The position numbers and the translations under genes were made by a program. Below the pieces are notes generated by a model. That model worked only from the letters and a program-made list of their open reading frames with translations. It made no database searches and was not told the DNA's origin. Source: a virus. Taken from it: a stretch of 29,023 nt of DNA. The DNA is taken from IMG/VR virus record IMGVR_UViG_3300037042_001675, positions 1-29,023 of that record; one strand, written 5' to 3'. Numbering within the stretch: the first letter of the stretch is position 1; each line of letters begins with the position of its first letter. This document shows positions 938-28,900 of the stretch, in pieces.

Positions 938-967
938 TTGCATATATGAAAATGTTATATATCTTTG
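938..967 (+). promoter_or_regulatory. Host-type (Bacteroidota housekeeping) promoter P1
   Basis: TTG at 938-940, a 19-base spacer and TATCTTTG at 960-967 match the Bacteroidota -33/-7 consensus TTG-N19-TAnnTTTG. The spacer begins with the palindrome CATATATG (941-948). The sequence after the box (TAAGGTCAATA, then GCAAAAC) is shared with promoter P2 at 5499-5528. It lies in the ~130-base gap before the gene at 1001 and probably drives the genes up to the terminator at 2498. A further identical copy is at 28838-28867. Confidence 0.82.
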
Positions 968-2522: not shown

Positions 2523-2715
2523 GTCATGACAGCATGACGATGTGCCAATTCTCTTTATATACCCCCCTTGAAATATGAGTAACTTTTTTTTTGAAACTTT
2601 TGCAAATTTATCGTCATATCGTCATGAAATCACGGAAACGCAGTACTGTATTGAGTTTTAGCCATGACGATAAAAAAAATTTATCGACATTTGTCGGCAG
2701 TATTATGTCATTAAT
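2523..2715. other. Candidate replication origin with repeated TTATCGTCA elements
   Basis: This AT-rich gap contains a cluster of one short element on both strands: TTATCGTCA at 2608-2616 (+), ATATCGTCA at 2616-2624 (+), TTATCGTCA at 2665-2673 (-), TTATCGACA at 2681-2689 (+), ACATCGTCA at 2535-2543 (-). It also has a GTCATGAC palindrome at 2523-2530. The element resembles the DnaA box TTATCCACA. Arms 2664-2674 and 2680-2690 form a near-perfect 11-base inverted repeat with a 5-base A loop. A run of nine T (2584-2592) could serve as an unwinding element. Origin function is inferred from repeats plus flanking DnaA-like and primase genes; the same sites could be operators for the primase promoter. 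Confidence 0.6.
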
Positions 2716-2723
2716 TATATTTG
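2716..2723 (+). promoter_or_regulatory. Probable host-type -7 box before the primase gene
   Basis: TATATTTG at 2716-2723 fits TAnnTTTG. The nearest upstream TTG (2691-2693) is 22 bases away instead of 19, so the -33 element is weak or replaced by an activator. Transcription would begin near 2728-2730, at the ATG, leaving little or no leader. Confidence 0.5.
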
Positions 2724-5491: not shown

Positions 5492-5498
5492 AAAAAAG

Positions 5499-5528
5499 TT
5501 GCATATATGAAAATAAGTACTACCTTTG
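5499..5528 (+). promoter_or_regulatory. Host-type promoter P2, twin of P1
   Basis: TTG 5499-5501, a 19-base spacer and TACCTTTG 5521-5528. The spacer begins with CATATATGAAAAT as in P1, and the following TAAGGTCAATA is also shared, then GCAAAAC. This is more similarity than a promoter consensus needs, so the shared palindrome or leader may bind a common regulator. It should drive the recombination operon from 5564 onward. Confidence 0.82.
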
Positions 5529-5563
5529 TAAGGTCAATAAGGCAAAACATTAATAAAAGCTAT

Positions 5564-8605: not shown

Positions 8606-8802
8606 ATCTCATTGAGAAAATTGACCAATTACCTGAAGCTCTCAGGTATTCAAAGCAGTCATGCGTTCAGCTCTATAAGATACGGGTAAAATATGATGGC
8701 CCACAGCCTCGGGAGTGCTTTTGTGCATCCGTGAGGCGTAAGGTATGGTATAAGGATTTTCAAATCTGGTATGAAAAATCTCTTAGATCAGTACATCTCT
8801 GA
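8584..8802 (+). CDS. Small unknown protein upstream of sigma-like gene
   Basis: A 72-residue protein with a helical acidic N-terminus (LDLIEKIDQLPEALRYSKQ) and a basic aromatic C-terminus containing RECFCASVRRKVWYKDFQIWY. The Cys-Phe-Cys pair and basic patch could bind nucleic acid, but no family is recognised. Long overlaps: 22 bases with the gene before and 32 with the sigma-like gene after. Confidence 0.58.
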   Translation: MFEQTELDLIEKIDQLPEALRYSKQSCVQLYKIRVKYDGPQPRECFCASVRRKVWYKDFQIWYEKSLRSVHL

Positions 8803-9313
8803 GCATTACCAGGAGGTGAGAGCTTATACCCTGTATTTTTTACAGCGTACTAAATCTACGATGGAAGTGGATACAGTTATTAACAATAGTTACCTGCACG
8901 TTATTAACATTCATGAGAGCCAGAAGGATATTGATATAGTCAAGAGCTACCTTTTAAATACCATTAAATACCAAATCCTTTGGACCACATCCAAAAGCCA
9001 TCGAGACGATGCCATCACGGCAATAGATGGGACACATAATGAGGTGGAGGATGAGCAGGATTTGAAGGATAAAGTAAGGGAGGATATCCAATATAGCCAT
9101 CAAAAGGCACTCATTGAAATGTACAGGGCAAAGATAGAGGATAACGTGCATCGAATTGTATTTGAGGCCTATATTGATAAGGGATACACCACAGCCAGGG
9201 CAATGGCTAAGTACTTTGGCATCACGGTAACCTCTGCCCATTACCTAATTAAAGAAATTAAACAAAATCTTAACTCAATGCAATATAGGTATGAGACCAT
9301 CGCAACTATTTAG
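8771..9313 (+). CDS. Divergent sigma-factor-like protein, candidate late regulator
   Basis: A 180-residue protein with the two-part layout of a small (ECF-type) sigma factor. Residues ~10-75 are helical and look like region 2: YTLYFLQRTKSTMEVDTVINNSYLHVI, then IVKSYLLNTIKYQILW. A charged linker follows (80-108). Residues ~123-168 look like the region 4 HTH: HRIVFEAYIDKGYTTARAMAKYFGITVTSAHYLIKEIKQNL. It is the last gene before the structural genes, and its 3' end contains the first of five copies of a shared late promoter-like motif. Inference: it directs host RNA polymerase to phage late genes. Alternative: a simple HTH activator. Similarity to known sigma factors is weak by eye. Confidence 0.6.
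   Translation: MKNLLDQYISEHYQEVRAYTLYFLQRTKSTMEVDTVINNSYLHVINIHESQKDIDIVKSYLLNTIKYQILWTTSKSHRDDAITAIDGTHNEVEDEQDLKDKVREDIQYSHQKALIEMYRAKIEDNVHRIVFEAYIDKGYTTARAMAKYFGITVTSAHYLIKEIKQNLNSMQYRYETIATI
9261..9293 (+). promoter_or_regulatory. Late promoter-like motif PL1
   Basis: ATTAAACA ending at 9264, 16-base spacer, CAATATAGG at 9281-9289, one T, then ATG 9291. It sits inside the last codons of the sigma-like gene and heads the head/packaging unit (9291-11912). First of five matching sites. Confidence 0.68.
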
Positions 9314-9455
9314 CATCATGGCAATGTTCACGGCATTCTCGGTAGGGCTATCTCTTATCTGGGAAAGCTATACATGGGCTAGCAAGGGGGCAGGCGTATG
9401 GATTTTACTATATTACATTTGGCTAATAACATCAGAATATGAAAATCAAGAATGA
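9291..9455 (+). CDS. Small membrane protein, first late gene
   Basis: ATG 9291, directly after late motif PL1, gives 54 residues (MRPSQLFSIMAMFTAFSVG...). ATG 9318 is an internal alternative (45 residues). Two hydrophobic stretches, FSIMAMFTAFSVGLSLIW and GVWILLYYIWLITS, allow one or two membrane spans. The start overlaps the sigma-like gene by 23 bases and the stop overlaps the next gene by 17. The motif at the start decides for 9291. Function unknown. Confidence 0.58.
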   Translation: MRPSQLFSIMAMFTAFSVGLSLIWESYTWASKGAGVWILLYYIWLITSEYENQE

Positions 9456-9639
9456 ACACATAGGTAGTTACGTTACTATCTATAACACAAAAGGGTTTGA
9501 TACCTCAATTTATGTAACTGAAGAAATGGCTCAGGATCATGAGTATTACTCATCTGTAGGCTTAGGCTATCTTTTTGAGGTAGAGGATACCAAAGCTAAG
9601 AAATACAAAGGAGTGGATGATGCCAAAACCGAGGGCTAA
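9439..9639 (+). CDS. Small unknown protein in head/packaging unit
   Basis: A 66-residue protein, MKIKNEHIGSYVTIYNTKGF, mostly predicted beta strands, ending in a charged tail (EDTKAKKYKGVDDAKTEG). The short beta-rich domain resembles structural accessory proteins that precede head genes in phages, but no family is recognised. Overlaps the next gene by ~20 bases. Confidence 0.55.
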   Translation: MKIKNEHIGSYVTIYNTKGFDTSIYVTEEMAQDHEYYSSVGLGYLFEVEDTKAKKYKGVDDAKTEG

Positions 9640-10090
9640 CGAAACAGAGGAGCAGTATATCGCTCGCTGTATGAGTGATGCTGAAACGTTAGATAAATAC
9701 CCTGATGAAGGCCAGAGGTATGCAGTATGTATTTCTATCTATGAGGGTCCTATTGGAGCATATCGCAGGGCATTCCAGGATAGCTATACCGACTATCCCA
9801 ATGCTGCAACCGAGAATGCCAAAACAGCTCTTAGATGGGCAGAAGAGAATGGATGGGGATCATGTGGCACCCCCGTGGGTAAAGCTCGTGCTAATCAGTT
9901 AGCAAAAGGTGAACCCATAACGGAGGAAACCATCTCCAGGATGGCAGGATTTGAACGGCATCGGCAGAACTCCCAACGTGAGCTAGGAGATGGATGCGGT
10001 AGGCTCATGTGGTTAGCCTGGGGAGGTGATGAGGGTATTGAATGGGCCTCGAGAAAATTAAAACAAATACGAGATGGCAAAGCAAACTAA
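9620..10090 (+). CDS. Phage head-associated domain protein
   Basis: About 156 residues, starting at ATG 9620 (ATG 9617 adds one Met). Two known building blocks: an N-terminal segment EEQYIARCMSDAETLDKYPDEGQRYAVC with two conserved cysteines, and a C-terminal domain with GSCGTPVGKARANQLAKGEPITEETISRM, FERHRQNS and LMWLAWGGDEGIEWASRKL. That second pattern (G-T-x-V-G-x-x-R-A-x-Q-L ... R-M ... F-x-R-H ... W-G-G-D-x-G-x-x-W-A) recurs in phages attached to or next to head maturation proteases and portals. Here it is a separate gene far from the protease at 21668. Its precise function in head assembly is not known. Confidence 0.72.
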   Translation: MPKPRANETEEQYIARCMSDAETLDKYPDEGQRYAVCISIYEGPIGAYRRAFQDSYTDYPNAATENAKTALRWAEENGWGSCGTPVGKARANQLAKGEPITEETISRMAGFERHRQNSQRELGDGCGRLMWLAWGGDEGIEWASRKLKQIRDGKAN

Positions 10091-10214
10091 TGTTAAGCTT
10101 CATGTGGCTAAGCCAAAGGTCAAGAGACCAGGGGTGCATTCAAAGTGCAAGGCATCTAAATTGAAAGGTTCTAAGAATTATTTAAAATTATATAAAGGGC
10201 AAGGCAATGGGTAA
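10074..10214 (+). CDS. Small basic protein before the terminase
   Basis: ATG 10074 to TAA 10212-10214, 46 residues, very basic: KPKVKRPGVHSKCKASKLKGSKNYLKLYKGQGNG. The K-R-P-G-V-H-x-K-x-K-x-S-K-L-K-x-S-K-N-Y pattern is, from memory, a recurrent short protein in front of terminase small subunits of Bacteroidota phages. Likely nucleic-acid binding, perhaps a packaging cofactor. Overlaps genes on both sides (17 and 8 bases). Confidence 0.65.
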   Translation: MAKQTNVKLHVAKPKVKRPGVHSKCKASKLKGSKNYLKLYKGQGNG

Positions 10215-10632
10215 GCATAAATACATAGAAACTCCAGAGGCTATGTGGGATCTATTCGAGGCTTATAAACGTTGGTGCAAGGAAAATCCTAGGTACTCCT
10301 ATTCTCTATCTACAAAGACAGGAGAGGCTACTGCTGTGCCATTGGAAAGGCCGTTAACTCAAGTGGGTTTCAGGACTTTTGCTGCTGAGAAAGGAAGCTC
10401 TGTACAGGATTATTTTGCGAATACGGATGGGAGATATACCGATTATGCGACAATCTGTTCACGCATAGAGGAGGCCATCCGAATGGACCAGATCGAGGGA
10501 GGCATGACAGGGCAGTACAATGCATCCATTACCCAGCGATTGAATAACCTAACTGAGCGAGTAGATACGACTACCAAAGGTGAGAAGATAGACAGCATTA
10601 AGGTAACCATCGTACGGCCAGATGCAGATTGA
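10207..10632 (+). CDS. terS: Terminase small subunit
   Basis: A 141-residue protein with the layout of a terminase small subunit family of Bacteroidota phages: ETPEAMWDLFEAYKRWCKENP at the N-terminus, a short beta hairpin, PLERPLTQVGFRTF (HTH-like), DYFANTDGRYTDYATICSRIEEAI, and a C-terminal oligomerisation/terminase-binding part ITQRLNNLTERVDTTTKGEKID. It would recognise the packaging site and load the large subunit. Its location just before the large terminase gene confirms the call. Confidence 0.82.
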   Translation: MGKHKYIETPEAMWDLFEAYKRWCKENPRYSYSLSTKTGEATAVPLERPLTQVGFRTFAAEKGSSVQDYFANTDGRYTDYATICSRIEEAIRMDQIEGGMTGQYNASITQRLNNLTERVDTTTKGEKIDSIKVTIVRPDAD

Positions 10633-10792
10633 TCTGATGTGCTCTGTAGTGGAGGCGTACATCTATAAGATGAAAGGAGAGCAGGTAAGGATAGATAGGA
10701 GAGCTGTGGCAAGTGATGGAAGGCAGATGGCTATGTTAATGAATGCCTACCAAATAGCAGTTAATGGAGATAAAGAGCACGGTAATATTTGA
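10622..10792 (+). CDS. 56-residue hypothetical protein between terminase genes
   Basis: ATG 10622 to TGA 10790-10792, starting MQIDLMCSVVEAYIYKMKGE with a helix AVASDGRQMAMLMNAYQIAV. Overlaps the small subunit gene by 11 bases and the large subunit gene by 29, so it fits the packing of this unit and fills the 131-base gap between the terminase genes. No family recognised. Confidence 0.55.
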   Translation: MQIDLMCSVVEAYIYKMKGEQVRIDRRAVASDGRQMAMLMNAYQIAVNGDKEHGNI

Positions 10793-11912
10793 GAAGAACT
10801 ATGCAGCTCTAGAAGGGCCACATAGGTTTATCATTAACGAGGGAGGGAGCAGGAGCTCTAAGACCTACAGCCTCTGCCAGCTCATGGTTATCTATTGCCT
10901 GCAGAATTCTGGGAAGGTTGTGAGTATTATTCGTAAAACCTTCCCTGCATTGAGGGCAACGGTGCTAAGGGATTTCATAGAGATCCTAAAAGAGATGGGT
11001 ATTTATAGCCTGGATAGCCATAACAAGAGTGAGCATATATATACTTTCTCTAATGGCTCCATTGTGGAATTTTTTTCCGTGGATGATGAGCAGAAGATAA
11101 GAGGTAGAAAGAGAGATATAGCATGGTGTAATGAAGCTAATGAGCTGTACTTTGATGACTTCACGCAGCTTAATATGAGAACTGAATTTAAGCTTATATT
11201 TGACTACAACCCATCAGATAGCTCGAGCTGGTTATATGAGCTACCAAAGGAGGAGAGCATCCTAATCAAATCAACGTACCGAGATAACCCATTCTTGCCT
11301 CAGAGCATCAGATCTCAGATTGAGGATTTAAAGCGAACCGATGAGGCACTGTATCAAATCTATGCCCTAGGTGAGAAGGCCATAAGCAAGAGTAACATAT
11401 ACAGCAACTGGACCTTCCTAAGCCATCGGCCTGCTAGGTTTGTCAACTATGTATACGGGCTTGACTTCGGGTACAATCACCCCACGGCACTCATGAGGGT
11501 CTATTGGTGTGATAATGATATATACATAGAGCCTGTGATATATGAGAGCTACCTAACTACGACCATGCTAATCGAGAAGCTCCAGGCTATGGGCATAGAG
11601 CAAACGGTAACCATCATGGCTGATTACTCACGGCCAGAGATTATACAGGAGATGAACATTGCAGGCTTTGATGTTCAGAATGCCAACAAGGTGGTCAAGA
11701 AGGGTATAGATAACGTTAAGACCTTTGGAGTATTTTGCCAGGATCATAAGGATTTAAAACGGGAGTATGAAAACTACAAGTGGAAAAAGATAGGTGATTT
11801 CATAACGGATGAACCTGTGAAGCTCTTTGATGATGCCATGGATGCTGTGAGGTACGCAACTACCCACATACGGCAGGAGTACTATACGGATGACAGCTAC
11901 TTTGCGTTTTAA
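10764..11912 (+). CDS. terL: Terminase large subunit
   Basis: A 382-residue packaging motor, PBSX/Terminase_3 type. ATPase: Walker A GGSRSSKTYS (Lys33-Thr34), Walker B IAWCNEANE with catalytic Glu124, coupling motif DYNPSDSS. Nuclease: Asp234 in YGLDFGYNHPTA, Asp287 in IMADYSR, and Asp356-Asp357/Asp360 in LFDDAMDAVRYA. It translocates DNA into the prohead and cuts concatemers. The length is somewhat short for the family (about 400-450) but all motifs are present. It is the last gene of this unit; late motif PL2 follows. Confidence 0.93.
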   Translation: MEIKSTVIFEKNYAALEGPHRFIINEGGSRSSKTYSLCQLMVIYCLQNSGKVVSIIRKTFPALRATVLRDFIEILKEMGIYSLDSHNKSEHIYTFSNGSIVEFFSVDDEQKIRGRKRDIAWCNEANELYFDDFTQLNMRTEFKLIFDYNPSDSSSWLYELPKEESILIKSTYRDNPFLPQSIRSQIEDLKRTDEALYQIYALGEKAISKSNIYSNWTFLSHRPARFVNYVYGLDFGYNHPTALMRVYWCDNDIYIEPVIYESYLTTTMLIEKLQAMGIEQTVTIMADYSRPEIIQEMNIAGFDVQNANKVVKKGIDNVKTFGVFCQDHKDLKREYENYKWKKIGDFITDEPVKLFDDAMDAVRYATTHIRQEYYTDDSYFAF

Positions 11913-11913
11913 A

Positions 11914-11946
11914 AACAAATCAGCAGGATAGGATAATATAGGTATG
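11914..11946 (+). promoter_or_regulatory. Late promoter-like motif PL2
   Basis: TTTTAAAAACA ending at 11917, 16-base spacer, TAATATAGG 11934-11942, one T, ATG 11944. Lies in the 31-base gap after the terminase gene and heads the tail unit. Confidence 0.72.
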
Positions 11947-13407
11947 GCAATCTCATTAATAGCTAAGGCATACCCATTGATGCCAGCGTACAATCCTGTT
12001 AAGTTTATCTACAATTCTACCAATGTAAATATCCAAGGGTTTAAATACATCTTTGATATCTATGAGAGTGGCACAGCGATTAAGATAGCGGAGTACAGGG
12101 TACTGCCTACCTATAGCACAGGTTACGGTGAGATTGACCTGAGTAAGTTACTACAGGCAAAGGTAAGCTATGATCTTGAGCTAACTAATACCACGGTATA
12201 TAATGCACCTGGTAGCCATTACAAGTATGATGTGGCTATAGGGGAGGAGTACCTTACAACGACAAGCTACACGGCAAACCTTACTAACAATGGTGGCAAC
12301 GTTCAGATAAATGTAGCTAATACATTTGTAGCTGGTGATCAGATAGTCATTACCCAGGCCGATGGTGGTGTAGCTAATCCAAACCTCGAGGGCCTCTTCA
12401 CTGTCTTATCTGTTGGGGTGGGGTTCTTAGTGGTAAGTAGCTCATGGTCATTGGTAACCGATGCAACCATTAACGGGGATATAACCTATGCCGATGGACG
12501 TAAAACCATTAACCGAGCGTTGAGGCAGGATAAGAATAACTACGTTTTCAATGGTGCCATCCGATGGATAGAATGGCCTGCCTATGATTACCAGGATTAC
12601 CTACTCAATAACGTAACTGATAAGCTACTGACCACATTGCCAACGGATGGGTATTATGCTACCCTAGCACAGGATCTCTGGATGGATGCCGTGAACAACT
12701 CACCTGCTGGTAGCCATCGAATGGTATTCGAGAACAATCTAGGAGATATACTAGATAAGGATGTGGCGGCAACTGATCATGTGGTAGGCATCTCTGTTGG
12801 TCCTAACAATCATGGAGCTACCAACGTAGTGGCGGGATCAGCACCTTTGATTAAACCAGGTACTGAATGGTATGATTTCTATTATGAACATCTAGGTACT
12901 CAGAGCTCTCAAAAGTACAGGGTATATTTAGATAGAAGGGTAAGGGATATTGAGTATCATATCCTATTCCTGGATCGTATGGGATCATGGGGGTCATTTG
13001 CCTTCACAGGCCGTTACTATGAGAAAGGTAACGTAACACGGGAGCAATTCAATCGAGATGTGCAGGGCTATGTACAGGGCGGCAGTCCATTCAATCACTG
13101 GAGCTACAATACCCAGGACAAAGGATATGTTAACAGCTACATCAGTACTGATACAACCATCGATTTAAATACCAACTGGATGACTGAAGAGATGGCTCAG
13201 TATTTCTCTGAGCTTATCAGCTCTCCAGAGACCTATATCAAAAAGGCTATCTATGATGATGAGGACTGCGAGCAACCTCAGAGCACGGAGTACATTAGCT
13301 GTAATATCCTCACCTCATCGTATGAGCTATTCAAGAAACGAAATAAGAATTTAATTAGGCAAAGCATTACGATTAAGTACGCCAATAATGACCTAGTCAA
13401 TGGTTAA
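11944..13407 (+). CDS. Large tail/structural protein (distal tail-like)
   Basis: A 487-residue beta-rich protein. The N-terminus (MAISLIAKAYPLMPAYNPVKFIYNST) and the repeated short strands with many Asn, Thr and Tyr are typical of Bacteroidota phage virion proteins. A later conserved-looking segment, VRDIEYHILFLDRMGSWGSFAFTGRYYEKG, resembles a motif in distal-tail or tail-tip proteins of this group, where a D/N-R-x-G-x-W pattern is common. Placement between terminase and tape measure, in a forward but reversed-order structural region, supports a tail-tip role. Overlaps the next gene by 8 bases. Exact role is inferred. Confidence 0.6.
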   Translation: MAISLIAKAYPLMPAYNPVKFIYNSTNVNIQGFKYIFDIYESGTAIKIAEYRVLPTYSTGYGEIDLSKLLQAKVSYDLELTNTTVYNAPGSHYKYDVAIGEEYLTTTSYTANLTNNGGNVQINVANTFVAGDQIVITQADGGVANPNLEGLFTVLSVGVGFLVVSSSWSLVTDATINGDITYADGRKTINRALRQDKNNYVFNGAIRWIEWPAYDYQDYLLNNVTDKLLTTLPTDGYYATLAQDLWMDAVNNSPAGSHRMVFENNLGDILDKDVAATDHVVGISVGPNNHGATNVVAGSAPLIKPGTEWYDFYYEHLGTQSSQKYRVYLDRRVRDIEYHILFLDRMGSWGSFAFTGRYYEKGNVTREQFNRDVQGYVQGGSPFNHWSYNTQDKGYVNSYISTDTTIDLNTNWMTEEMAQYFSELISSPETYIKKAIYDDEDCEQPQSTEYISCNILTSSYELFKKRNKNLIRQSITIKYANNDLVNG

Positions 13408-16237
13408 GATACAACTAGCAACAGGATACCTGGAGGTAAAGGAGGGCACAGCTTTCCCGTTGAATTTTCAGGTAGGGGATATCAGAGATATCTCACAGCG
13501 TAAAGGTAACTTCTCAAAAACCATTACCCTGGTAGGGAGTAAGAATAACAATGACCTGCTGAACCATTACTATGATGTTAACATCGAGGCAGGCACCTTC
13601 AATATCAATGCCCTTACAACCTGCTCCGTTATCCAGGACGGCATCCCGATCATGGAGGATGCTAGCCTGCAACTTACCTCGGTTAAAAAGGTACAGCTAA
13701 CTGATGGCTATGAGGAGCACGTTGAGTATGAGGTATTGGTCAAGGATAGTAAAGGGGATTTCTTTACAGCCATTGGTAACAAGGAGCTAACAGATATTGA
13801 TTTCAGTGATCTGAATCATACATACGATGCGTTCAATGTAGTGAATAGATTTACCAACAATGTTAATGATGGGTTTAAGTACATCATGGCAGGTAGTGGC
13901 GATGCCTTCTATAGTACCCAGGAATTTAAACCAGCTTTCTTTGCCAAGGCTTACTTTGATCGTATATTCTCAGATGCAGGCTTTCAGTACAATTGGGCTA
14001 GCTTGTATGATGATCGCTTTGATAAATTGGTTATCCCTTACAATGGTGGGGTAGATAACTTTGATTATAATGATTATGTGGTAAAGGCCAATGTATCAGG
14101 GCTTACCTTCAACGGTACGTTTTTCCCAGGTACGGCTGAGATGAATACCCCGTTAACCATAACAGGATGGACTGAAACAGAGGATCCTCAGAGTATATAC
14201 AATCCATTAACAGGGGAGTACAGTACTCCTTTTATTATATCAATGAATAACGGGCAGTATTATGAGTACACAGTACAGATCCAGTATAACGTTATCCTAG
14301 ACAACACCACGGCAGGCACGGTCTATGCAGGTATGCCTAATGGAGCAGGGGGCCAGATAGCTAACCCTGCACACTATGAGCCTAAACTCCAGATATTAGC
14401 CAATGGTGTAAATAACAATTCAGCATATATATACACTAATCCAAACCCATTAAGCCCTGCCGTAGCCAATGCCATTGAAACTCCGTTAACATTAGCACCT
14501 GGTCAAACTACCATAGCGAGCCAAACGGTTATCGCTACCATTGTAACATCGGCCCCATTGATGAACTCAGGTACATTGTTGGACTTGAATATAAAGTGCG
14601 TACCAATGCCTTACATACCTAGTGGCTTACCAAATGCAGGTACCACATGGAGGGCAGGCTCAGTAACAGGGGCCCCTGCTAGTTTTGTAAAGCTACAGAT
14701 TGACGTTGTCAATTGTAATATCAGCATAACTCCTAGTAATAACATCATAGCAATAGGAGGAACGCTAGAGGTAAATGATTACATACCTAAGAAAATAAAG
14801 CAAAGCGATTTCATTAAGGGAGTATTCAATATGTATAACCTTTATGCTGAAGTTGACAAGAGCCAGCCTAACCTTATTAATCTAATCCATAGGGATGCCT
14901 ACTATGATAGTGGTAAAGAGGTTGACTGGACCTACAAGTTAGCCAAAGACCAGGAGCAAAGTTTATCATTCCTTCCAGAGATAACTAGTAAAAAGGTAAT
15001 ACTTACCTATGCCCCTGATAAGGATAGTGCTAACCAGGTCTATACGGATGCAACTAATCAGATCTATGGACAGGCTGAAGTGGTATTTGATAATGACTAT
15101 GTAAAAGAGATAACAACTAAGGCCGTCCTGTTCAGCCCTACTCCGATTAACCGTACCCCATTCGATGCCTATGTGCCAATGATTGCAGGAGCATCACCTG
15201 ATACTAATATACGCATACTGTATGATGGTGGTATGCGTACCTGTGGGCCATTCAATATATATGATTACGGGAGTACAGGGATGGCAGGCATAACGAGCTA
15301 CCCATACTGTGGACATTTCGACGATCCTCTACAGCCTAACTTTGATATTAATTTTGCTGTATGTAGTTTCTATTATTACCAGCCTTTGAGCCTAACAGAT
15401 AACAACCTTTACAACAGGTACTGGAGGCGTACAATGGGGCAAATAAATAACGGCAAAATGTTAACGGCTTTCTTTGATCTCAAAGAGCCAGATATCCAGA
15501 GCCTAGAGCTGAATGATAAGATAAGGATTGACAATAGCTGGTGGAACATTAACAAGGTAATTGATTACGATGCCAATGCTAACAAGCTAACACAGGTAGA
15601 ACTAATCAGCATTGACAATGAAATTAACTTTATGCCATTTGCTACCCCTTGGACTACTCCAGGCGTGGGCCTTCCAAACATATCTAGTATTCAGCAGGCA
15701 GGTAACCAAACGGTAATTAACTCAAAGCTGAATGATAACAACGTAAATGGAGGAGGGCAGGTATCTGGTAACGTTATCGGAAAGGGTAACCTAGTGGCAC
15801 CAGGTACAAAGACGGTAACCGTAGCCACGGGAGCTATTGTAGATGAGGATGGGATCACCGTGGATAACCTTCGGGTATTAGGTACATTCAATGGCCGTAC
15901 AATAGTACAGAATGCTCCATACTTATATACGGCTAACCTTGTTCAGATAGGAGCTGCTGCACCTGTGCCTTACTTACTTGAGGCATCCTTTGGCAACATC
16001 ACCTGGCAATATAACGGGGTAGGCCAATATCAGGGATTAATAGAGCAGTTTGATCTAGGAGCCATACCATCGGATAGGATAACGGTAATGATTAACCATA
16101 CCTTTTACAATGGGCTTTATAATGCCTATTATTCAGCCGTAGATAATAGCATATATATTGATACCAGTGCCATAGGGATAGGCCTATCTGATAACCTACT
16201 GAACTATACAACAATTGAAATAAAATACTATCCATAA
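13400..16237 (+). CDS. Very large tail/baseplate protein
   Basis: A 945-residue protein, the largest in the genome. The first ~150 residues contain GTAFPLNFQVGDIRDISQRKGNFSKTITL and DVNIEAGTFNINALTTCSVIQDG, a pattern (DIR-D-ISxRxGxFSKTIxLxG) seen in tail-hub-like proteins of Bacteroidota phages. The middle (about 220-470) is low-complexity beta-rich. The C-terminal third (from ~760) has a Gly/Asn-rich stretch and strand-rich receptor-facing sequence. It may be a baseplate hub with an attached fibre-like domain. Ends at 16237, the A of the tape measure ATG (1-base overlap). Confidence 0.6.
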   Translation: MVKIQLATGYLEVKEGTAFPLNFQVGDIRDISQRKGNFSKTITLVGSKNNNDLLNHYYDVNIEAGTFNINALTTCSVIQDGIPIMEDASLQLTSVKKVQLTDGYEEHVEYEVLVKDSKGDFFTAIGNKELTDIDFSDLNHTYDAFNVVNRFTNNVNDGFKYIMAGSGDAFYSTQEFKPAFFAKAYFDRIFSDAGFQYNWASLYDDRFDKLVIPYNGGVDNFDYNDYVVKANVSGLTFNGTFFPGTAEMNTPLTITGWTETEDPQSIYNPLTGEYSTPFIISMNNGQYYEYTVQIQYNVILDNTTAGTVYAGMPNGAGGQIANPAHYEPKLQILANGVNNNSAYIYTNPNPLSPAVANAIETPLTLAPGQTTIASQTVIATIVTSAPLMNSGTLLDLNIKCVPMPYIPSGLPNAGTTWRAGSVTGAPASFVKLQIDVVNCNISITPSNNIIAIGGTLEVNDYIPKKIKQSDFIKGVFNMYNLYAEVDKSQPNLINLIHRDAYYDSGKEVDWTYKLAKDQEQSLSFLPEITSKKVILTYAPDKDSANQVYTDATNQIYGQAEVVFDNDYVKEITTKAVLFSPTPINRTPFDAYVPMIAGASPDTNIRILYDGGMRTCGPFNIYDYGSTGMAGITSYPYCGHFDDPLQPNFDINFAVCSFYYYQPLSLTDNNLYNRYWRRTMGQINNGKMLTAFFDLKEPDIQSLELNDKIRIDNSWWNINKVIDYDANANKLTQVELISIDNEINFMPFATPWTTPGVGLPNISSIQQAGNQTVINSKLNDNNVNGGGQVSGNVIGKGNLVAPGTKTVTVATGAIVDEDGITVDNLRVLGTFNGRTIVQNAPYLYTANLVQIGAAAPVPYLLEASFGNITWQYNGVGQYQGLIEQFDLGAIPSDRITVMINHTFYNGLYNAYYSAVDNSIYIDTSAIGIGLSDNLLNYTTIEIKYYP

Positions 16238-18702: not shown

Positions 18703-19133
18703 TAAGTTTGCAAAGTATAATTAACAATGTGGTGAACTTCTATTCACAGCACAAACAGGTAAAGAAAGTCGGTAGCGATTTCAAAGAACAGTTATTTAAC
18801 TTCGCTACCCAGGATGAGAAATACCCTATCATTTTTATTGTGCCTGATGCTGTTATCCCTACCGAGAACACTACTGAATTTACCCTGGATATTTACTGCT
18901 ATGATATAATTCAAAAGGACAGGGCTAACATCATAACCATCCTAAGTGATTGCCATCAGATCCTGAATGATTTGTATGTATATTATTTTTTCGGTATTGA
19001 CAGGAGCATGGATGTTATCGGGGTGCCTACCTTTACCGCATTGAATAATGATTTACTAGATTATGCGGCAGGGTATCAGATGAGTATTACCTTTGCACTT
19101 AATGACTGGACCGATTGCGCTGTACCGATTTAA
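18699..19133 (+). CDS. Tail terminator/completion-like protein
   Basis: A 144-residue alpha/beta protein: helix SLQSIINNVVNFYSQHKQV, strand-rich KYPIIFIVPDAVIPTENTTEFTLDIYCYDII, then helix NIITILSDCHQILNDLYVYY, and a final strand-rich part ending NDWTDCAVPI. The order helix, strands, helix, strands resembles tail terminator/completion proteins of siphoviruses, and similar proteins accompany tape measure genes in Bacteroidota phages. Assignment is by layout, not by a diagnostic motif. Last gene of the PL2 unit. Confidence 0.5.
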   Translation: MISLQSIINNVVNFYSQHKQVKKVGSDFKEQLFNFATQDEKYPIIFIVPDAVIPTENTTEFTLDIYCYDIIQKDRANIITILSDCHQILNDLYVYYFFGIDRSMDVIGVPTFTALNNDLLDYAAGYQMSITFALNDWTDCAVPI

Positions 19134-19165
19134 ACATTTGCCCTGGTTAATGTAATATAGGTATG
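19131..19165 (+). promoter_or_regulatory. Late promoter-like motif PL3
   Basis: TTTAAACA ending at 19136, 16-base spacer, TAATATAGG 19153-19161, one T, ATG 19163. It overlaps the stop of the preceding gene and heads the fibre-like unit. Confidence 0.7.
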
Positions 19166-19936
19166 ACATTACCTAAATGGTGGGGGGATTGGAGGGGAAA
19201 CCTTACCCCTCATACTGGAGATTTACAACCTACTGACCTAATCGAATGCACTCAGATAGTAGCAGGACAACCTGTTAATACTGCAATCACAGGACAGCAG
19301 ATAATCAATGCAGCATCTGGTGGGGGTGCAACTTGGGGAAACATCACAGGTACCTTGAGCTCTCAAACTGATTTAAATACTGCCTTGAATGGTAAGCAGG
19401 CAACCTTAGTAAGTGGCACTAATATTAAAACAGTTAATGGGAACTCATTGGTAGGTGCAGGTGATGTTAATCTAAACCCCAAGGCCCTAGGATATTCTGC
19501 ATCTACAGGATCATTGAGCGTATCGACAGCAGTAACTATATCTAAGGCCTTGAGAATACCAGCCAATACATTGACTACTGATACATTACTTGAGATACAA
19601 TGGCGTATGATACGGGTAACAGGTAACACGGGGCAGGTGCATACAAGGCTGTACATCAATACCAGCAACAGCATGACAGGTGCTACATTGATATCTGGTA
19701 CCAGCTCATTGAATGGAGGCGGAGTACAGCAGGCCATCAAATGTGATAAGACAATCACTTGCAGAACTAATGGTTTTTCATGGATGAACTCAGGGGCTAG
19801 TGAATTTACAGGCGTAGGATTGAATGCCTACAACTTAAATAGAACAGTAGATCAATATCTATTATTTACAGTACAATCAGCTACGAATGGAGAAACCTGT
19901 TTAGTTGATTTTTTCAGAGTGTTGCAATATGCCTAG
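19163..19936 (+). CDS. Tail fibre/appendage-like protein
   Basis: A 257-residue protein with the common fibre-shaft pattern WGNITGTLSSQTDLNTALNGKQ followed by VSGTNIKTVNGNSLVGAGDVNL (about residues 53-104), known from many phage fibres and receptor-binding proteins. The C-terminal ~150 residues form a beta-rich domain (RMIRVTGNTGQVHTRLYIN ... QYLLFTVQSATNGETCLVDFF) that probably makes the tip. Role: virion appendage, possibly receptor contact. It has its own late motif, so it may be expressed independently of the rest of the tail. Overlaps the next gene by 8 bases. Confidence 0.72.
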   Translation: MTLPKWWGDWRGNLTPHTGDLQPTDLIECTQIVAGQPVNTAITGQQIINAASGGGATWGNITGTLSSQTDLNTALNGKQATLVSGTNIKTVNGNSLVGAGDVNLNPKALGYSASTGSLSVSTAVTISKALRIPANTLTTDTLLEIQWRMIRVTGNTGQVHTRLYINTSNSMTGATLISGTSSLNGGGVQQAIKCDKTITCRTNGFSWMNSGASEFTGVGLNAYNLNRTVDQYLLFTVQSATNGETCLVDFFRVLQYA

Positions 19937-20381
19937 ATACGCAAAAAACGGAGTATTTAACATCCTTTACCCTACCAGGAGAAGGATGGCCACGATCTTA
20001 AAAAGAATCATTAGGCAGAACGGCCTAGTAGATACCCGTACTTTGGAGGATAGCGTGAGAATAAACGCACAAATAACAGGCTTCAGTACCCTTGAGATTG
20101 AGATCGTGGCGATGTATTACTTTATATTTCTAAACAATGGTGCTTTCCTTTGGAATGGAGGGGTAATACCTCCTTATAATTTGGTTCGCCAATTTACCGA
20201 TGAGCTAACAAGTGCAGGAATAATAACAGAAATATACAGCCAATATACTGAATGGCTTACAAAAAATTACCCTATCCTAGAGATTGTGCCTATCTTAGAA
20301 GAGGAGCAAAGCATTGTATATAACTTCTATGCCCTAGATGCACCGCCTGATTTCACTCCAGGCTTTCCGCTAGATGTTTAA
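19929..20381 (+). CDS. Unknown virion-region protein
   Basis: ATG 19929 (150 residues, MPRYAKNGVFNILYPTRRRM) is chosen over an upstream TTG 19905, because it overlaps the previous gene by only 8 bases. A basic N-terminus is followed by a helical middle (STLEIEIVAMYYFIFLNNGAFLWNGG) and an acidic, proline-rich C-terminus. No family recognised. Located between fibre and antisense chaperone-like genes, a tail assembly role is plausible. Its end overlaps the convergent gene's end by 12 bases, with no obvious terminator between the two. Confidence 0.62.
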   Translation: MPRYAKNGVFNILYPTRRRMATILKRIIRQNGLVDTRTLEDSVRINAQITGFSTLEIEIVAMYYFIFLNNGAFLWNGGVIPPYNLVRQFTDELTSAGIITEIYSQYTEWLTKNYPILEIVPILEEEQSIVYNFYALDAPPDFTPGFPLDV

Positions 20382-21110
20382 CTCTTTCTTCATTCCTATC
20401 ATATTGAAAACAAAAGTAAGTTTTAGCTTACCTAGCTTCTCAGCTTTGGTTAAATCACCATTGCATAGGCTGTAGATCATTTGCTCCCATGACCATTTCG
20501 AGGCTTTTTTTTCCGCTTCAATTTCATCGAGCTCCTCCTTAGTTAGCTTTGCTTTCTCCTCATCAGATAGATCCGTATCATCCACATCTCCAAATAAATT
20601 TTTGTACGTTTCGTAAAAGTGCTTACGGAACTTTATGAACTCATTAATAATGCCGTAGATATCTGTGATGGGTAGATCTAGGAACTGCTCAGCCCTATTG
20701 TTAAGGTCAAAATCATACGGCTCCATGACCTCCTCCTGCCATTCGTTAAGGCGTACTTTCCTGTACAGGATAGCACAAATCTTATCTAGGTTATCCACAT
20801 AGTCATTAGTGAACAAGTACTCAAGGTCTATCCATTCATACAGCTCTAGCTTACTGAAGGCCTTGAGCTTCAACCCCAGCACCTCATCCTGGTATCTATT
20901 GGGTGGCTGATGGCTATACCAATTGACCTGCTTAATTAAGGCATTGAGCTCATCAATCTCGAGCTCCTCAATGATTTCAATATTAACATCGGCTAAAATA
21001 GAAAGGGCCTCACTATTGTAGTGATAGGCCCCTTGCGTTTTATCTATTTTACTTATCTCGATGAACTGCTCAAGCGTTACTTGGCTCCAGCTCTGGGGTA
21101 GCTTCAGCAT
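20370..21110 (-). CDS. Tail assembly chaperone-like protein 2 (minus strand)
   Basis: A 246-residue acidic helical protein: LPQSWSQVTLEQFIEISKI, SILADVNIEIIEELEIDELNALI, KLELYEWIDLEYLF, DKICAILYRKV, and a long charged C-terminus (DVDDTDLSDEEKAKLTKEELDEIEAEKKASKWSW is the acidic stretch). Its first ~190 residues line up by eye with the neighbour gene 21070-21624: both have xTxEQF near the start, an IDxxDxI/L helix, a short strand, then an ILY/VMFK block. So they look like tandem paralogs. Tail chaperones of this type are helical and adjoin tape measure genes. It is in the +1 frame of its neighbour, overlapping 41 bases. Confidence 0.6.
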   Translation of the reverse strand: MLKLPQSWSQVTLEQFIEISKIDKTQGAYHYNSEALSILADVNIEIIEELEIDELNALIKQVNWYSHQPPNRYQDEVLGLKLKAFSKLELYEWIDLEYLFTNDYVDNLDKICAILYRKVRLNEWQEEVMEPYDFDLNNRAEQFLDLPITDIYGIINEFIKFRKHFYETYKNLFGDVDDTDLSDEEKAKLTKEELDEIEAEKKASKWSWEQMIYSLCNGDLTKAEKLGKLKLTFVFNMIGMKKELNI

Positions 21111-21624
21111 TTTTAAACTGTTGGTTTACTTTATTGGCTATGTACATCACATACGGGATAGAAATATCCGCACTCATTTTGCAAATGAATTTAGCTTTGT
21201 GTTTAATGTGGGCCTCTGCGTAGTGTTCAGCAGGGGTTAGATCCTCACGTTTAAACATGACTGCCATCATTTGGCTGATGTAGTTTTTAGGCTTCTCGAT
21301 TGCTAGCTTCTCGATGTGCTTAGTATCTCTAACCGTTAGCTTCATCTGAGCCGTATAGGTGTAACCATCTATCTCGATGGTATCAATGGTAGGATAGTCA
21401 ATGTTTTTATCCAGGCTATTGAAGGCCTTTACCATCTCGATAAAATCTGAGATATCCACATCCCAAAATTCCTTTTCAGGTATGCCTAGATATTCAAAGA
21501 TTTTCAGGTGCTTATCTACAGCATCTAGGTCCTTATTATTATTGATCTCTGTGATCATTTCGAACTGCTCAATGGTGAGCTCTTTCATTTGGTTCGGGAT
21601 CTCTTTCCCTAGGATTGTAATCAT
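21070..21624 (-). CDS. Tail assembly chaperone-like protein 1 (minus strand)
   Basis: A 184-residue acidic protein beginning MITILGKEIPNQMKELTIEQFEMITEI, then KIFEYLGIPEKEFWDVDISDFIEMV, a beta hairpin (YPTIDTIEIDGYTYTAQMKLTV), RDTKHIEKLA, and a helical half (YISQMMAVMFKREDLTPAEHYAEAHI). This resembles tail chaperones that are followed by a second frame-shifted chaperone gene. It is unusual in being on the minus strand while every other gene is on the plus strand. A host-type -7 box (21639-21646, minus) precedes it by ~15 bases with an A-rich leader. Function is inferred from layout and position. Confidence 0.6.
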   Translation of the reverse strand: MITILGKEIPNQMKELTIEQFEMITEINNNKDLDAVDKHLKIFEYLGIPEKEFWDVDISDFIEMVKAFNSLDKNIDYPTIDTIEIDGYTYTAQMKLTVRDTKHIEKLAIEKPKNYISQMMAVMFKREDLTPAEHYAEAHIKHKAKFICKMSADISIPYVMYIANKVNQQFKNAEATPELEPSNA

Positions 21625-21636
21625 AATTTTTTTTTT

Positions 21637-21670
21637 AACAAATATAAGAAAATTCTAATATAGGTAAATG
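21637..21670 (+). promoter_or_regulatory. Late promoter-like motif PL4
   Basis: TTTTAACA ending at 21640, 15-base spacer, TAATATAGG 21656-21664, then TAA and ATG 21668 (three bases before the ATG instead of one). It lies in the 43-base divergent gap and heads the capsid unit; its upstream box overlaps the minus-strand -7 box. Confidence 0.62.
21639..21646 (-). promoter_or_regulatory. Host-type -7 box for the minus-strand chaperone-like genes
   Basis: On the minus strand the sequence reads TATATTTG, fitting TAnnTTTG. The -33 position 19 bases upstream reads TTT instead of TTG, so it is a weak match. Transcription would start about 10 bases before the ATG at 21624, in a poly-A leader. Confidence 0.5.
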
Positions 21671-22642
21671 GCAGAAAAAAATATCCCTACCTATAAGATA
21701 ACCATTGACCCAGCCTATGCTGAGAATGGTGAAGATCTTGGTATTGAACAAATAGCATTCACGGCAAATCCTGCCATTAAGGTAAAAGGGATGGCCTTCT
21801 CAAGTGAAGCTAAGCCAATGTTTTTTTCAGATGAACTAAAGTACCGCATCACGGCCCCTGCATTAATACCAATGGATATCTATCGTTATGATGATGACGC
21901 CAAACAGGAGTATTTTGTACAATTTACTAAGGAGGAGATAGAGAACATCCACGGTAAATTCATGAGGGATATGGTCAATAGAGACCTATTCAATCTTGAG
22001 CATGATACTGAGAAAACAGTACCTGCCTATGTGCTTGAGGCCTGGATTGTGGAGAACCCGAAAAAGGATAAAGCATATAGCTCTTTTGGTATCGAGGTGC
22101 CAGAAGGTACATTGATGGTAACGGCACAGGTAACGGATAAGGAATACTACGCAGAACTAGTTAGCCAAGAGCAAATTGGCTTTTCCATCGAGGGGTATTT
22201 AGGCATGAAATTAAGCGAGCAAACCAATAAAACAAAAATAAATATGAACAAGTTACCCGATGGCGAGCACCTAATCGAGGGTAAAATCTACGTCGTAAAA
22301 GATGGAGAGGTTATCGAGATTAAGGAAGTCGACAAAGTAGAAGCCTCTGAAGAGGTAGCTCTTGAGGATACGGTAGTGGAGGAAGAGGAAACAGTTGAAA
22401 CAACTGAAGAGGAAACTATGGCTGTAGATCCAGAGCTAGATGCTGAGGCAGTATTGGCAATTGTTAAGCCAGCTATTGAAGAGCAGGTTAATGCATTAGT
22501 AGCTATGATTGCTGATTTGCAAAACCAATTAGATCAAGCTCTAACTCCAGAGATGGAAGAGGAGGAAGTGGAGATGAGTGAGGCTGTAGCTCTTAGCGTA
22601 CAGCAGAGATTTAGTAACGTAAATAAATTTATAAACAAATAA
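21668..22642 (+). CDS. XkdF-like head maturation protease fused to scaffold region
   Basis: A 324-residue protein. Residues ~1-185 resemble the XkdF-type putative serine protease of phage heads: IEQIAFTANPAIKVKGMAF, then NLEHDTEKTVPAYVLEAWIV (candidate His in LEHD), and QIGFSIEGYL (candidate Ser in F-S-I-E-G). Next comes an LPDGEHLIEGKIYVVKDGEVIEI beta motif often seen in such proteins. From ~230 on the sequence is very acidic (long Glu/Val runs) with a coiled coil (QVNALVAMIADLQNQLDQAL), typical of a scaffold. So protease and scaffold appear joined. It directly precedes the capsid gene and late motif PL4 lies at its start. Confidence 0.8.
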   Translation: MAEKNIPTYKITIDPAYAENGEDLGIEQIAFTANPAIKVKGMAFSSEAKPMFFSDELKYRITAPALIPMDIYRYDDDAKQEYFVQFTKEEIENIHGKFMRDMVNRDLFNLEHDTEKTVPAYVLEAWIVENPKKDKAYSSFGIEVPEGTLMVTAQVTDKEYYAELVSQEQIGFSIEGYLGMKLSEQTNKTKINMNKLPDGEHLIEGKIYVVKDGEVIEIKEVDKVEASEEVALEDTVVEEEETVETTEEETMAVDPELDAEAVLAIVKPAIEEQVNALVAMIADLQNQLDQALTPEMEEEEVEMSEAVALSVQQRFSNVNKFINK

Positions 22643-22646
22643 CAAA

Positions 22647-23567
22647 ATGAGAAAGTTAAAATTCGATTTGAATATCGACCCAACTGCTTTATTAGCAGCA
22701 AACCCTGAGGCATTCTACTCTAAGGCATATTTGTCTGAGGATACTGCCGACAATTACCGAGCTCTTCCTGGAGTAAAGTACAAAACTAAATTAGCTTCTG
22801 TTACTTTTGGTAACATCCTACAGGCTTCTAGCTGTGCCTTTACCGCTCCAACTGATGACCTAGATGCTAAAGAAATTGACGTATGTGCTCTTTCTGCAAT
22901 GGCTCAGATTTGTCAATTTGACCTTGAGCAATCATTCCTTTCTTTGCAGATGAGCAAAGGATCAAATGGTGATTTCTCTGTAGCTTCTTTCATGAGCTTC
23001 TACTGGTCTGAAATGGCTAATAAAATCAATGGAGATCTTGAGAGCATCCGCTGGCAAGGTGATACAGCTTCTTTGAACCCTACACTTGCATTGTGTGATG
23101 GTTACGAAAAATTATTAGGAGCTGTAGGTTCAGGTGTTATCAATGGAGGAACTGGTGCTATTGCTAACTTTACAGCTCTTGAGGCTGCATTATCTGCTGC
23201 ATTTGCTTTGTTACCTGCTACTATTGCAACCAGAACTGCTGATTTACGTTTATATATGCCTACACAATTGGTTAACATCTACCGATTAGGGGTAGCATCT
23301 GGTAACACCCAGGCATACATCACTCAGGATCTAGCGTTAACATTCTTAGGTGTTAAAATCGTAGTTTGTCCAGGGATGTCTAACAACACTTTTGTATGGA
23401 CTTTGAAAGATAACCTTATCTATGCTTTCGATGCTGAAGGTGATAGCTCTGATTTGCGTGCTGTTAACTTGGCTGATACTGTAGCTGAGCCTTACATCCG
23501 TACTCGTGCTAACATGAAGGTAGGTTTCAACTTCGTTAACCCAGGAGAGATCGTATTCTATTCATAA
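22647..23567 (+). CDS. Major capsid protein (HK97-fold type)
   Basis: A 306-residue protein, four bases after the protease-scaffold gene. Features: acidic early part, then DNYRALPGVKYKTKLASVTFG, CQFDLEQSFLSLQMSKG, a helical spine-like segment (FMSFYWSEMANKINGDLESIRWQGD), and an Ala-rich region before RLYMPTQLVNIYRLG and LGVKIVVCPGMSNNTFVW, the usual end of HK97-type capsid proteins of Bacteroidota phages. Codon use is distinct (many GCT, TCT, GGT), as expected for a very highly made protein. No obvious delta domain of full length at the N-terminus, which fits a separate scaffold region on the protease. A stem-loop follows the stop. Confidence 0.88.
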   Translation: MRKLKFDLNIDPTALLAANPEAFYSKAYLSEDTADNYRALPGVKYKTKLASVTFGNILQASSCAFTAPTDDLDAKEIDVCALSAMAQICQFDLEQSFLSLQMSKGSNGDFSVASFMSFYWSEMANKINGDLESIRWQGDTASLNPTLALCDGYEKLLGAVGSGVINGGTGAIANFTALEAALSAAFALLPATIATRTADLRLYMPTQLVNIYRLGVASGNTQAYITQDLALTFLGVKIVVCPGMSNNTFVWTLKDNLIYAFDAEGDSSDLRAVNLADTVAEPYIRTRANMKVGFNFVNPGEIVFYS

Positions 23568-23576
23568 TTAATAACC

Positions 23577-23606
23577 GAGCTCTCAGCAATGGGGGCTCTT
23601 TAATAC
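23577..23606 (+). terminator. Stem-loop after the capsid gene (partial terminator)
   Basis: GAGCTCTC (23577-23584) pairs with GGGGGCTC (23591-23598) using some G-T pairs, loop AGCAAT. The following CTTTAATACTTTT is an imperfect T tract, so read-through is likely. It shares a 16-base core with the next stem-loop. Confidence 0.65.
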
Positions 23607-23615
23607 TTTTAAATC

Positions 23616-24152
23616 ATGCCTTGTTTAGTTCTTGAAGACATAGTAAAATCATGCGACAATAACTCTGGTGGTATTTATGGTATCTGGATAAATCAACAGG
23701 ATGAGATCGCATCGATAACTCCTACCAATCCTTCAGCAGGAGCTGGATGGTCAATCACAGGTATCACATTAGCTGGCGTTAACTTGTTTCAAAACTTCTA
23801 CATTAGACGAAATACCTCCAACTTTACAGAGGAGAGTAACATCGATCTAGTGAATGGTAGCTCTTTCGTTACCTCTACAATTAACCTAATGTTTCACCGA
23901 AGAGATGCTGCAAAATCTCGTGCCATTAAAATCTTAGGTGGTGGACAGCAGTACCTTACTGCCATCATTTTGGATGCCAATGGTATTTATTGGTACTTCC
24001 CTTACCTTCAGGTAAGTGCAACAGGTGAAGGTTCAGGTACAGCTCGTGCAGATGGTAGTAAATATTCCGTTACTCTAGTTGCGGAAAATGAGTACCTGGC
24101 ATATGAGGTGAACATGACCCCTGTACAATTGCAGGCCATCGGAGTACAATAA
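23616..24152 (+). CDS. Probable major tail (tube) protein
   Basis: A 178-residue beta-rich protein: MPCLVLEDIVKSCDNNSGGIYGIW, FTEESNIDLVNGSSFVTSTINLMFHRRDAAKSRAIKIL, GGGQQYLTAIILDANGIYWYFPYLQVSATGEGSG, then VTLVAENEYLAYEV. The sequence of strands with 'D-NG-YW' and 'E-x2-A/P-A/Y-x-V' is typical of tail tube proteins in Bacteroidota phages. Its place between two matching stem-loops, straight after the capsid gene, implies high dosage as needed for a tube. Alternative: a head decoration protein. A diagnostic motif is lacking. Confidence 0.6.
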   Translation: MPCLVLEDIVKSCDNNSGGIYGIWINQQDEIASITPTNPSAGAGWSITGITLAGVNLFQNFYIRRNTSNFTEESNIDLVNGSSFVTSTINLMFHRRDAAKSRAIKILGGGQQYLTAIILDANGIYWYFPYLQVSATGEGSGTARADGSKYSVTLVAENEYLAYEVNMTPVQLQAIGVQ

Positions 24153-24171
24153 TCAGCTCCACATATATCTA

Positions 24172-24200
24172 AAGGCCCTCAGCAATGGGGGCTTTTTTTT
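24172..24200 (+). terminator. Strong intrinsic terminator after the tube-like gene
   Basis: AAGGCCCTC (24172-24180) pairs with GGGGGCTTT (24187-24195), loop AGCAAT, then eight T (24193-24200). The core CTCAGCAATGGGGGCT is identical to that at 23582-23597. The T tract runs straight into the upstream box of late motif PL5. Confidence 0.82.
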
Positions 24201-24234
24201 AACATTCTTTTAGGTATTGAATAATATAGGTATG
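24198..24234 (+). promoter_or_regulatory. Late promoter-like motif PL5
   Basis: TTTTAACA ending at 24204, 17-base spacer, TAATATAGG 24222-24230, one T, ATG 24232. It restarts transcription right after the terminator, for the portal and lysis unit. Confidence 0.72.
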
Positions 24235-27521: not shown

Positions 27522-27991
27522 GGTACCTGATACCATTATTATTATTGATATCCTGCTCAGCTCCTAAGCGGGCCCAGTATCATTACAAGCGAGCCCTGGC
27601 TAATGGGCTTAAAATTGAGGTAGCTACTGATACAATCAAAGTGCTGAAGGTGGATAGCTTCCCTGTTATTGTTAATGATACCATAGTATGGGAAAAAGTT
27701 ATCTCATATCACGATACGGTAATACGTTACCAAAATCAAATCGTAGAAATCCCTAAAACGAGATGGCAAACCAGGATAGAGTACCGTGAGAGGGTAAAGA
27801 TTGAGAAAATCAAAGGAGCTACTGAGGTAAAGGTAATTAAAGAGCAGGCAAAGATAGCAAAGGCAACTAAGGAGGTAAAGTACCGCACTAGGTGGTGGCC
27901 ATTTGTTGTGGGTTTAATCATAGGTTTAATCATACCTTATCTATTACAAGGTGGCCTATTAGATAGGATATCCCTGTGGCGTAAATTATGA
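27518..27991 (+). CDS. Unimolecular (u-)spanin
   Basis: A 157-residue protein with both anchors: an N-terminal lipoprotein signal with lipobox L10-I-S-C13 (MRYLIPLLLLISC), a periplasmic middle of ~110 residues with heptad-like and basic helical stretches (RIEYRERVKIEKIK), and a C-terminal membrane span (about 126-144, WWPFVVGLIIGLIIPYLL) with a short basic tail. This outer-lipoprotein plus inner-membrane layout is that of u-spanins, such as T1 gp11, that fuse the two membranes in the last step of lysis. No separate i-/o-spanin pair is visible. Its ATG overlaps the endolysin-like stop, and its stop overlaps the exonuclease start. Confidence 0.78.
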   Translation: MRYLIPLLLLISCSAPKRAQYHYKRALANGLKIEVATDTIKVLKVDSFPVIVNDTIVWEKVISYHDTVIRYQNQIVEIPKTRWQTRIEYRERVKIEKIKGATEVKVIKEQAKIAKATKEVKYRTRWWPFVVGLIIGLIIPYLLQGGLLDRISLWRKL

Positions 27992-28767: not shown

Positions 28768-28837
28768 CTAATTCCTTTATTTTACAAGGGTTTCAAAAAT
28801 AATTTGTTAAAAAATGCAAAAATTTGTCAATAAAGTT

Positions 28838-28867
28838 TTGCATATATGAAAATGTTATATATCTTTG
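28838..28867 (+). promoter_or_regulatory. Host-type promoter P1, second copy
   Basis: TTG 28838-28840, 19-base spacer with CATATATG, TATCTTTG 28860-28867; identical to 938-967 together with its flanks. Confidence 0.82.
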
Positions 28868-28900
28868 TAAGGTCAATATGACGCAAAACCCATAAAAAAA

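Follow-up and report, generated by a model that had tools for sequence, protein, structure and literature searches.

Late genes of phages T4 and SPO1 are switched on by phage specificity factors (T4 gp55, the SPO1 sigma cascade) that act on the host core RNA polymerase (RNAP); the T4 late promoters consist of a -10 element only and require the sliding clamp, and both genomes are much larger than the one described here. In phage phiEco32 the phage sigma phi32_gp36 drives structural genes from middle and late promoters (PMC8948821, PMC4331800). In Salmonella phage 7-11 the phage sigma SaPh711_gp47 works with the host core RNAP on bipartite promoters with a 16-nt spacer, which lie upstream of the late blocks, and the early genes use promoters of the host primary sigma (PMC8948821). 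We found a system that would share features with both phages in the IMG/VR virus record IMGVR_UViG_3300037042_001675 (positions 1 to 29,023; this whole 29,023-nt stretch is referred to as the window). It consists of five copies of a two-box motif, AACA-N16-YAATATA, at the heads of five gene blocks (P1-P5), and of an open reading frame (ORF) at 8771-9313 for a protein resembling sigma factors of the extracytoplasmic function (ECF) type. Very probably, P1-P5 are late promoters that are read by the host core RNAP together with this ECF-like sigma, although both the recognition of the sites by the sigma and their late timing are inferred.

A sequence-only reading of the window had placed five motif copies on the plus strand, with spacers of 16, 16, 16, 15 and 17 nt. 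All five were located at these positions with these spacers (Table 1), and the minus strand was empty. A scan of the record for AACA-N14-19-YAATATAGG gave five matches, all on the plus strand, compared with a mean of 0.037 and a maximum of 1 in 300 dinucleotide shuffles searched on both strands. The pattern AATATAGGTA likewise has exactly five copies in the whole record, every one of them on the plus strand. Since the second half alone (AATATAGG) is unremarkable (7 observed vs 2.6 expected from shuffles), the significance of the motif lies in its two-box form. The first box, described earlier as TTWAACA, is exact at four of the five sites, whereas P2 reads TTTAAAAACA; it is better written as (T)AAACA/TTAACA, AACA being preceded by A or T. 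The motif had also been said to abut a start codon, which applies to four heads, but at P4 the ATG is 2 nt more distant (GGTAAATG).

Related loci were gathered by scans with the ORF 8771-9313 protein and the terminase large subunit (TerL), which yielded many contigs, many of them 28-30 kb long. The sigma-like protein falls into seven clades (A-G), down to ~43% identity to the record's own protein. The key census was restricted to 230 related loci fetched by protein only, and motif-fetched loci were removed as biasing. In this census, where the relatives share kinship and the counts are not independent events, the core AACA-N14-18-YAATATA was present before gene g487 (P2) in 73 of 74 relatives from clades A-D, within the 3' end of the sigma gene (P1) in 82 of 83 from the same clades, and before g257 (P3) in 37 of 44. 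Before the protease gene (P4), the second box was found in 14/14 and both boxes in 7/14 loci. P5 was sparsely covered by unbiased loci, and its figures (second box in 22/22, both boxes in 20/22) rest partly on motif-fetched ones. The core was found at only 1 of 1240 starts of all other genes, which confirms that genes within the blocks lack the motif, and its orientation was forward in 211 cases and reverse in one. When motif-fetched loci were included, P1-P5 accounted for 281 of 288 distinct matches, and the others include at least two that are P2 and P4 sites at locus ends. The gapped motif search proposed earlier, run over this genome and its relatives, thus found the core concentrated at block heads and almost absent from other gene starts. 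Motif-scan matches in viral_contigs outside the family were rejected: they look like chance, without the flanking A/T context and the family genes.

Neither Pfam nor PHROGs assigns a family to ORF 8771-9313, the candidate recognition factor. Two AlphaFold models of its product (predicted local distance difference test, pLDDT, 73 and 76) were compared with known structures, and the leading 50 PDB matches in Foldseek were almost exclusively sigma factors, many of the ECF type. The sigma from an RNA-guided transcription complex scored best (E=5e-4, probability 1.00), ahead of SigL, SigH, AlgU, RpoE and sigma-28, and sigma-annotated phage proteins recurred among the fold matches in BFVD. The two halves also match separately, residues 1-87 to RpoE-type region 2 (VIA Z 8.1) and residues 102-180 to sigma-H region 4 (Z 8.6). 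In the model, which is of medium confidence, the 180-aa protein shows the two-domain ECF layout (regions 2 and 4 without 1.1 and 3, ~160-200 aa). At the sequence level, the NCBIfam profile sigma70-ECF (TIGR02937) recognized 15 of 29 relatives (best E=1.3e-4) and Sig70_bacteroi1 recognized 7 of 29. All 161 of the 161 loci containing both flanks carry the sigma gene, and the region-4 helix TSAxYxI is nearly invariant across relatives, as is the AACA box. ECF promoters have an AAC-containing -35 element and a spacer of ~16-17 nt; the AACA with 15-17 nt at all sites is compatible with this, but is not proof of recognition. Taken together, these results suggest that the protein is an ECF-like (group 4) sigma and likely the recognition factor for P1-P5.

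Several points weigh against this assignment. The record's own protein matched no sigma family significantly by sequence in Pfam, PDB sequences or NCBIfam; among sigma profiles, the only match was PRK12520, and a weak one (E=0.074). The structure model is of medium confidence (pLDDT 76, predicted template modelling score 0.42), and VIA Z values of 8-9 are in the range that the tool calls uncertain for helical models. Every relative carries the sigma gene, leaving no sigma-minus contrast. The -10 box YAATATA differs from the CGT type of most ECF sigmas, and the first box of P4 decays to TACA in clade C. Among the other searches, those of PDB sequences with profiles of the sigma alignments returned noise only, the sigma alignment found no relative when bacterial and archaeal genomes were scanned with it once, so that no prophage or host could be named, and tblastn of the protein against a cultured-phage collection gave no match at E<=1.

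The early half of the genome carries promoters of a different type. The Bacteroidota pattern TTG-N19-TAnnTTTG, whose consensus has been documented in Flavobacterium johnsoniae and F. psychrophilum (PMC6847099, PMC9723704), is present at 938, 2691 and 5499, whereas the late sites lack it, in agreement with the earlier distinction between the two. The operon headed by the 5499 promoter ends with the sigma gene, and P1 is located in the last codons of that gene. A host alternative sigma, or host sigma-A with a phage activator, could read P1-P5 while the sigma-like ORF does something else. Host ECF sigmas do exist in flavobacteria (PMC9723704), and the record encodes two other small DNA-binding-like proteins, a 70-aa helix-turn-helix protein at 8154 and a DnaA-C-like protein at 2024. 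We nevertheless regard this explanation as unlikely, because the TAnnTTTG box that sigma-A reads is absent from the sites, SM6, the ECF motif of flavobacteria, carries CGT in its -10 box, sigma-54 uses sites of the -24/-12 form (PMC9723704), and a phage ECF-like sigma co-occurs in every informative locus.

Even less probable is that the motif serves to initiate translation, as a ribosome-binding or Kozak-like element of late genes with strong expression, a role that the sequence-only reading had already considered less likely. The motif does touch the start codon at four heads in the record, and 3 nt is the commonest distance from YAATATA to the start in relatives. However, this distance is not fixed, ranging from 3 to 14 nt in one gene family and up to ~20 nt in clade G, and boxes and spacing are kept with the start codon 13-20 nt away. 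In clade C, g487 starts 14 nt (vs 3) after YAATATA, and both boxes keep their spacing. In clades E-G, TAAACA-N16-YAATATA directly follows the TerL stop in 30/30 loci with at least three different genes downstream, whose ATG is 0 to ~20 nt further; g487, which has moved away from TerL in these clades, has the site in 0/24. As clades C and E-G vary both gene and leader, boxes and spacing are conserved independently of them. Strong late genes inside the blocks, such as those for the major capsid protein (MCP) and the portal, lack the motif, and the fixed spacing of a box that lies 30 nt upstream fits recognition of DNA rather than by the ribosome. An A at -3, an initiation signal known from Flavobacterium (PMC6847099), is missing at the late heads (0/5 vs 17/31 other starts). 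Furthermore, the P1-like site of clades E-G lies within the frame that follows the sigma gene (L310:8592, L335:8598, L346:2839). The AAT ATA codons of this site seem not to vary, and 15% of the Ile codons there are ATA, but shared ancestry bars a strict test. The site marks a position, not a gene or a start codon, and is therefore very probably a promoter rather than a ribosome-binding site.

The bases that follow YAATATA vary by clade (AATATAGG, AATATAAG, AATATAAAG, AATATATA). Of the YAATATAGG box described earlier, only YAATATA is kept; judging from the aligned loci, the correct core is AACA-N16-YAATATA with a spacer of 16 +/- 1, and the clade-specific G's after it belong to the discriminator. 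Single-subunit RNAP promoters end in a sequence like YAATATAGG, but reading by a phage-encoded RNAP with T7-like TATAGG initiation is extremely improbable, since clades E-G do not conserve GG, a pair of boxes with a variable spacer of about 16 nt is typical of sigma, and no record protein scanned against Pfam, all large ones included, resembles an RNAP. A dedicated late promoter class, as originally proposed, is by far the best explanation of the five sites, their presumed promoter activity being supported by the conservation of both boxes and their spacing in relatives whose spacer, following gene and start-codon distance differ.

Table 1 Promoters, genes and other elements in the window
Feature	Position	Strand	Description
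Host-type (Bacteroidota -33/-7) promoter, early region	938..967	+	second copy 28838-28867
Host-type promoter candidate before primase-like gene	2691..2723	+	full pattern in 13/53 relatives
Host-type promoter TTG-N19-TAnnTTTG	5499..5528	+	heads early operon whose last gene is the sigma gene
ECF-like sigma factor (putative), 180 aa	8771..9313	+	region 2 ~residues 1-87, region 4 (helix-turn-helix) ~102-178
P1	9259..9290	+	TAAACA (AACA 9261-9264), N16, CAATATA (9281-9287), GGT, ATG 9291; within sigma gene 3' end
Small membrane-like protein, 54 aa	9291..9455	+	headed by P1; conserved in clades A-D
Terminase large subunit (TerL)	10764..11912	+	final gene of P1 block; Pfam Terminase_3 E=3e-28
P2	11912..11943	+	AAAACA (AACA 11914-11917), N16, TAATATA (11934-11940), GGT, ATG 11944; directly 3' of TerL
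P3	19131..19162	+	TAAACA (AACA 19133-19136), N16, TAATATA (19153-19159), GGT, ATG 19163
P4	21635..21667	+	TTAACA (AACA 21637-21640), N15, TAATATA (21656-21662), GGTAA, ATG 21668; capsid protease/MCP block
Host-type -7 box TATATTTG	21639..21646	-	serves minus-strand genes 21624-20370; overlaps P4; 33/35 relatives
Intrinsic terminator hairpin GGCCCTCAGCAATGGGGGC	24171..24200	+	-15.8 kcal/mol, z -4.4; T run after hairpin meets P5 first box
P5	24199..24231	+	TTAACA (AACA 24201-24204), N17, TAATATA (24222-24228), GGT, ATG 24232; portal/lysis block

In the transcription programme that we propose, host-type promoters would start the early operons, including the one that ends with the sigma gene. The sigma would then activate five late operons, for packaging, tail, fibre, protease/capsid and portal/lysis. 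The helix-turn-helix in region 4 of the sigma would read AACA, with the preceding T or A, as the -35 element, and region 2 would read YAATATA as the -10 element. Since the record encodes no polymerase-like protein among those scanned, the host core enzyme would be needed.

At four of the five heads, 3 nt separate the -10 box from the start codon, so transcription would start at or within ~2 nt of the AUG, producing leaderless or near-leaderless late mRNAs. If YAATAT occupies -12 to -7, the AUG of these four heads falls at -2 to +1, and, if this AUG is used, transcripts would have to begin at or just before it. A TA-rich -10-like signal ~10-12 nt before the start codon is an accepted sign of leaderless genes (PMC3160421), and leaderless mRNAs make up 5.5% in F. 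psychrophilum (PMC9723704); 87% of the predicted transcripts of F. johnsoniae have leaders of >10 nt (PMC6847099). Against a start at the AUG speaks the short discriminator it requires, ~4-6 nt. P2 of clade C and the sites of clades E and G, as far as their sequences can tell, show that a short leader is tolerated. Fusion of the phage sigma promoter with the start codon, which would make the mRNAs of every late operon in this phage group leaderless at the outset, is a real possibility, though one we lean slightly against. If true, the switch that redirects the polymerase would also shift the late genes away from the leader-dependent translation start of the host.

The start codon downstream of P1 overlaps the end of ORF 8771-9313 in a different frame and opens the 54-aa ORF, which is missing from the 60-aa ORF list. 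Relatives have 78 distinct homologous peptides, 53-58 aa long, and this membrane ORF is real though unlisted. Near-identical hairpins GCYCTCAGCAATGGGGGC are found at 23577-23598, after the MCP gene, and at 24171-24200, before P5; both are more stable than all of 200 shuffles. No Rfam match was found. At 21624-21670, a host-type minus-strand box and the plus-strand P4 stand back to back as two promoter classes within one ~44-bp gap. A bidirectional role of P4 was considered and rejected in favour of two promoters, one of each class, that overlap. The minus-strand pair of genes within 20370-21624 (184 and 246 aa), opposed to the late genes, is kept in relatives, and neither protein has a Pfam or PHROG match.

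In the early region, 920-997 and 5481-5558 form a near-repeat that includes two host-type promoters and the same downstream TAAGGTCAAT; this repeat is a shared early leader. The ATG at 5507 of a listed 116-aa ORF falls within the 5499 promoter, and the true start of this ORF is therefore probably further downstream. The ends of the record (1-1123 and 27901-29023) are homologous at 1040 of 1123 positions, and most of the differences fall at intervals of three. A genome of ~27.9 kb, circular or permuted, is indicated, with ends that stem from two variants or from a mis-join. The phage is small, uncultured and freshwater-type. Its host is probably a member of the Bacteroidota, judging from the host-type boxes, a BT4734-like domain and the kinship of TerL, which is ~32% identical to proteins of cultured phages, best to those of Parabacteroides and Bacteroides phages. 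Neither megablast of the record nor tblastn of MCP gave a match to cultured phages.

To summarize, the host-type early promoters, the phage sigma and the five late promoters would make up a complete, testable transcription programme in a large uncultivated phage group that escapes annotation by current protein libraries. The sigma-promoter pair comes with a natural variant series, in which AACA and YAATATA are fixed and the discriminator is clade-dependent. The system may exemplify late mRNAs in which a nearly absent leader is part of the design, and Bacteroidota would gain a useful gene-expression tool in an orthogonal ECF-like sigma whose promoter is defined.

Systems in which a phage sigma has its own cognate late promoters are well established; the present one would work alike, but is not classed as a member. 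With T4 and SPO1 it would share the switching of late genes by a phage specificity factor on the host core RNAP; it differs from T4 in that late promoters there are -10-only and clamp-dependent, and the genomes are much larger. It is set apart from phiEco32 and 7-11 because the promoter sequence differs and there is no tblastn-detectable homology. The consensus of these phages (tAATGTAtA or GTAAtg-16-aCTA) is not found, and AACA-16-YAATATA is present in all clades. The AT-rich -10 element of phiEco32, tAATGTAtA, bears a superficial likeness to YAATATA, but its single-element promoter is ascribed to a missing sigma region 4, whereas here a -35 box goes with a region-4-like fold (PMC8948821, PMC4331800). 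Phage 7-11 differs in its consensus, GTAAtg-16-aCTA, and in its host phylum (PMC8948821). The sigma of Cronobacter phage GAP52 matches the ORF 8771-9313 protein by fold only (BFVD). The Flavobacterium ECF regulon (SM6) involves likely the same kind of sigma in the same host phylum, but its -10 box is CGT, compared with YAATATA here (PMC9723704).

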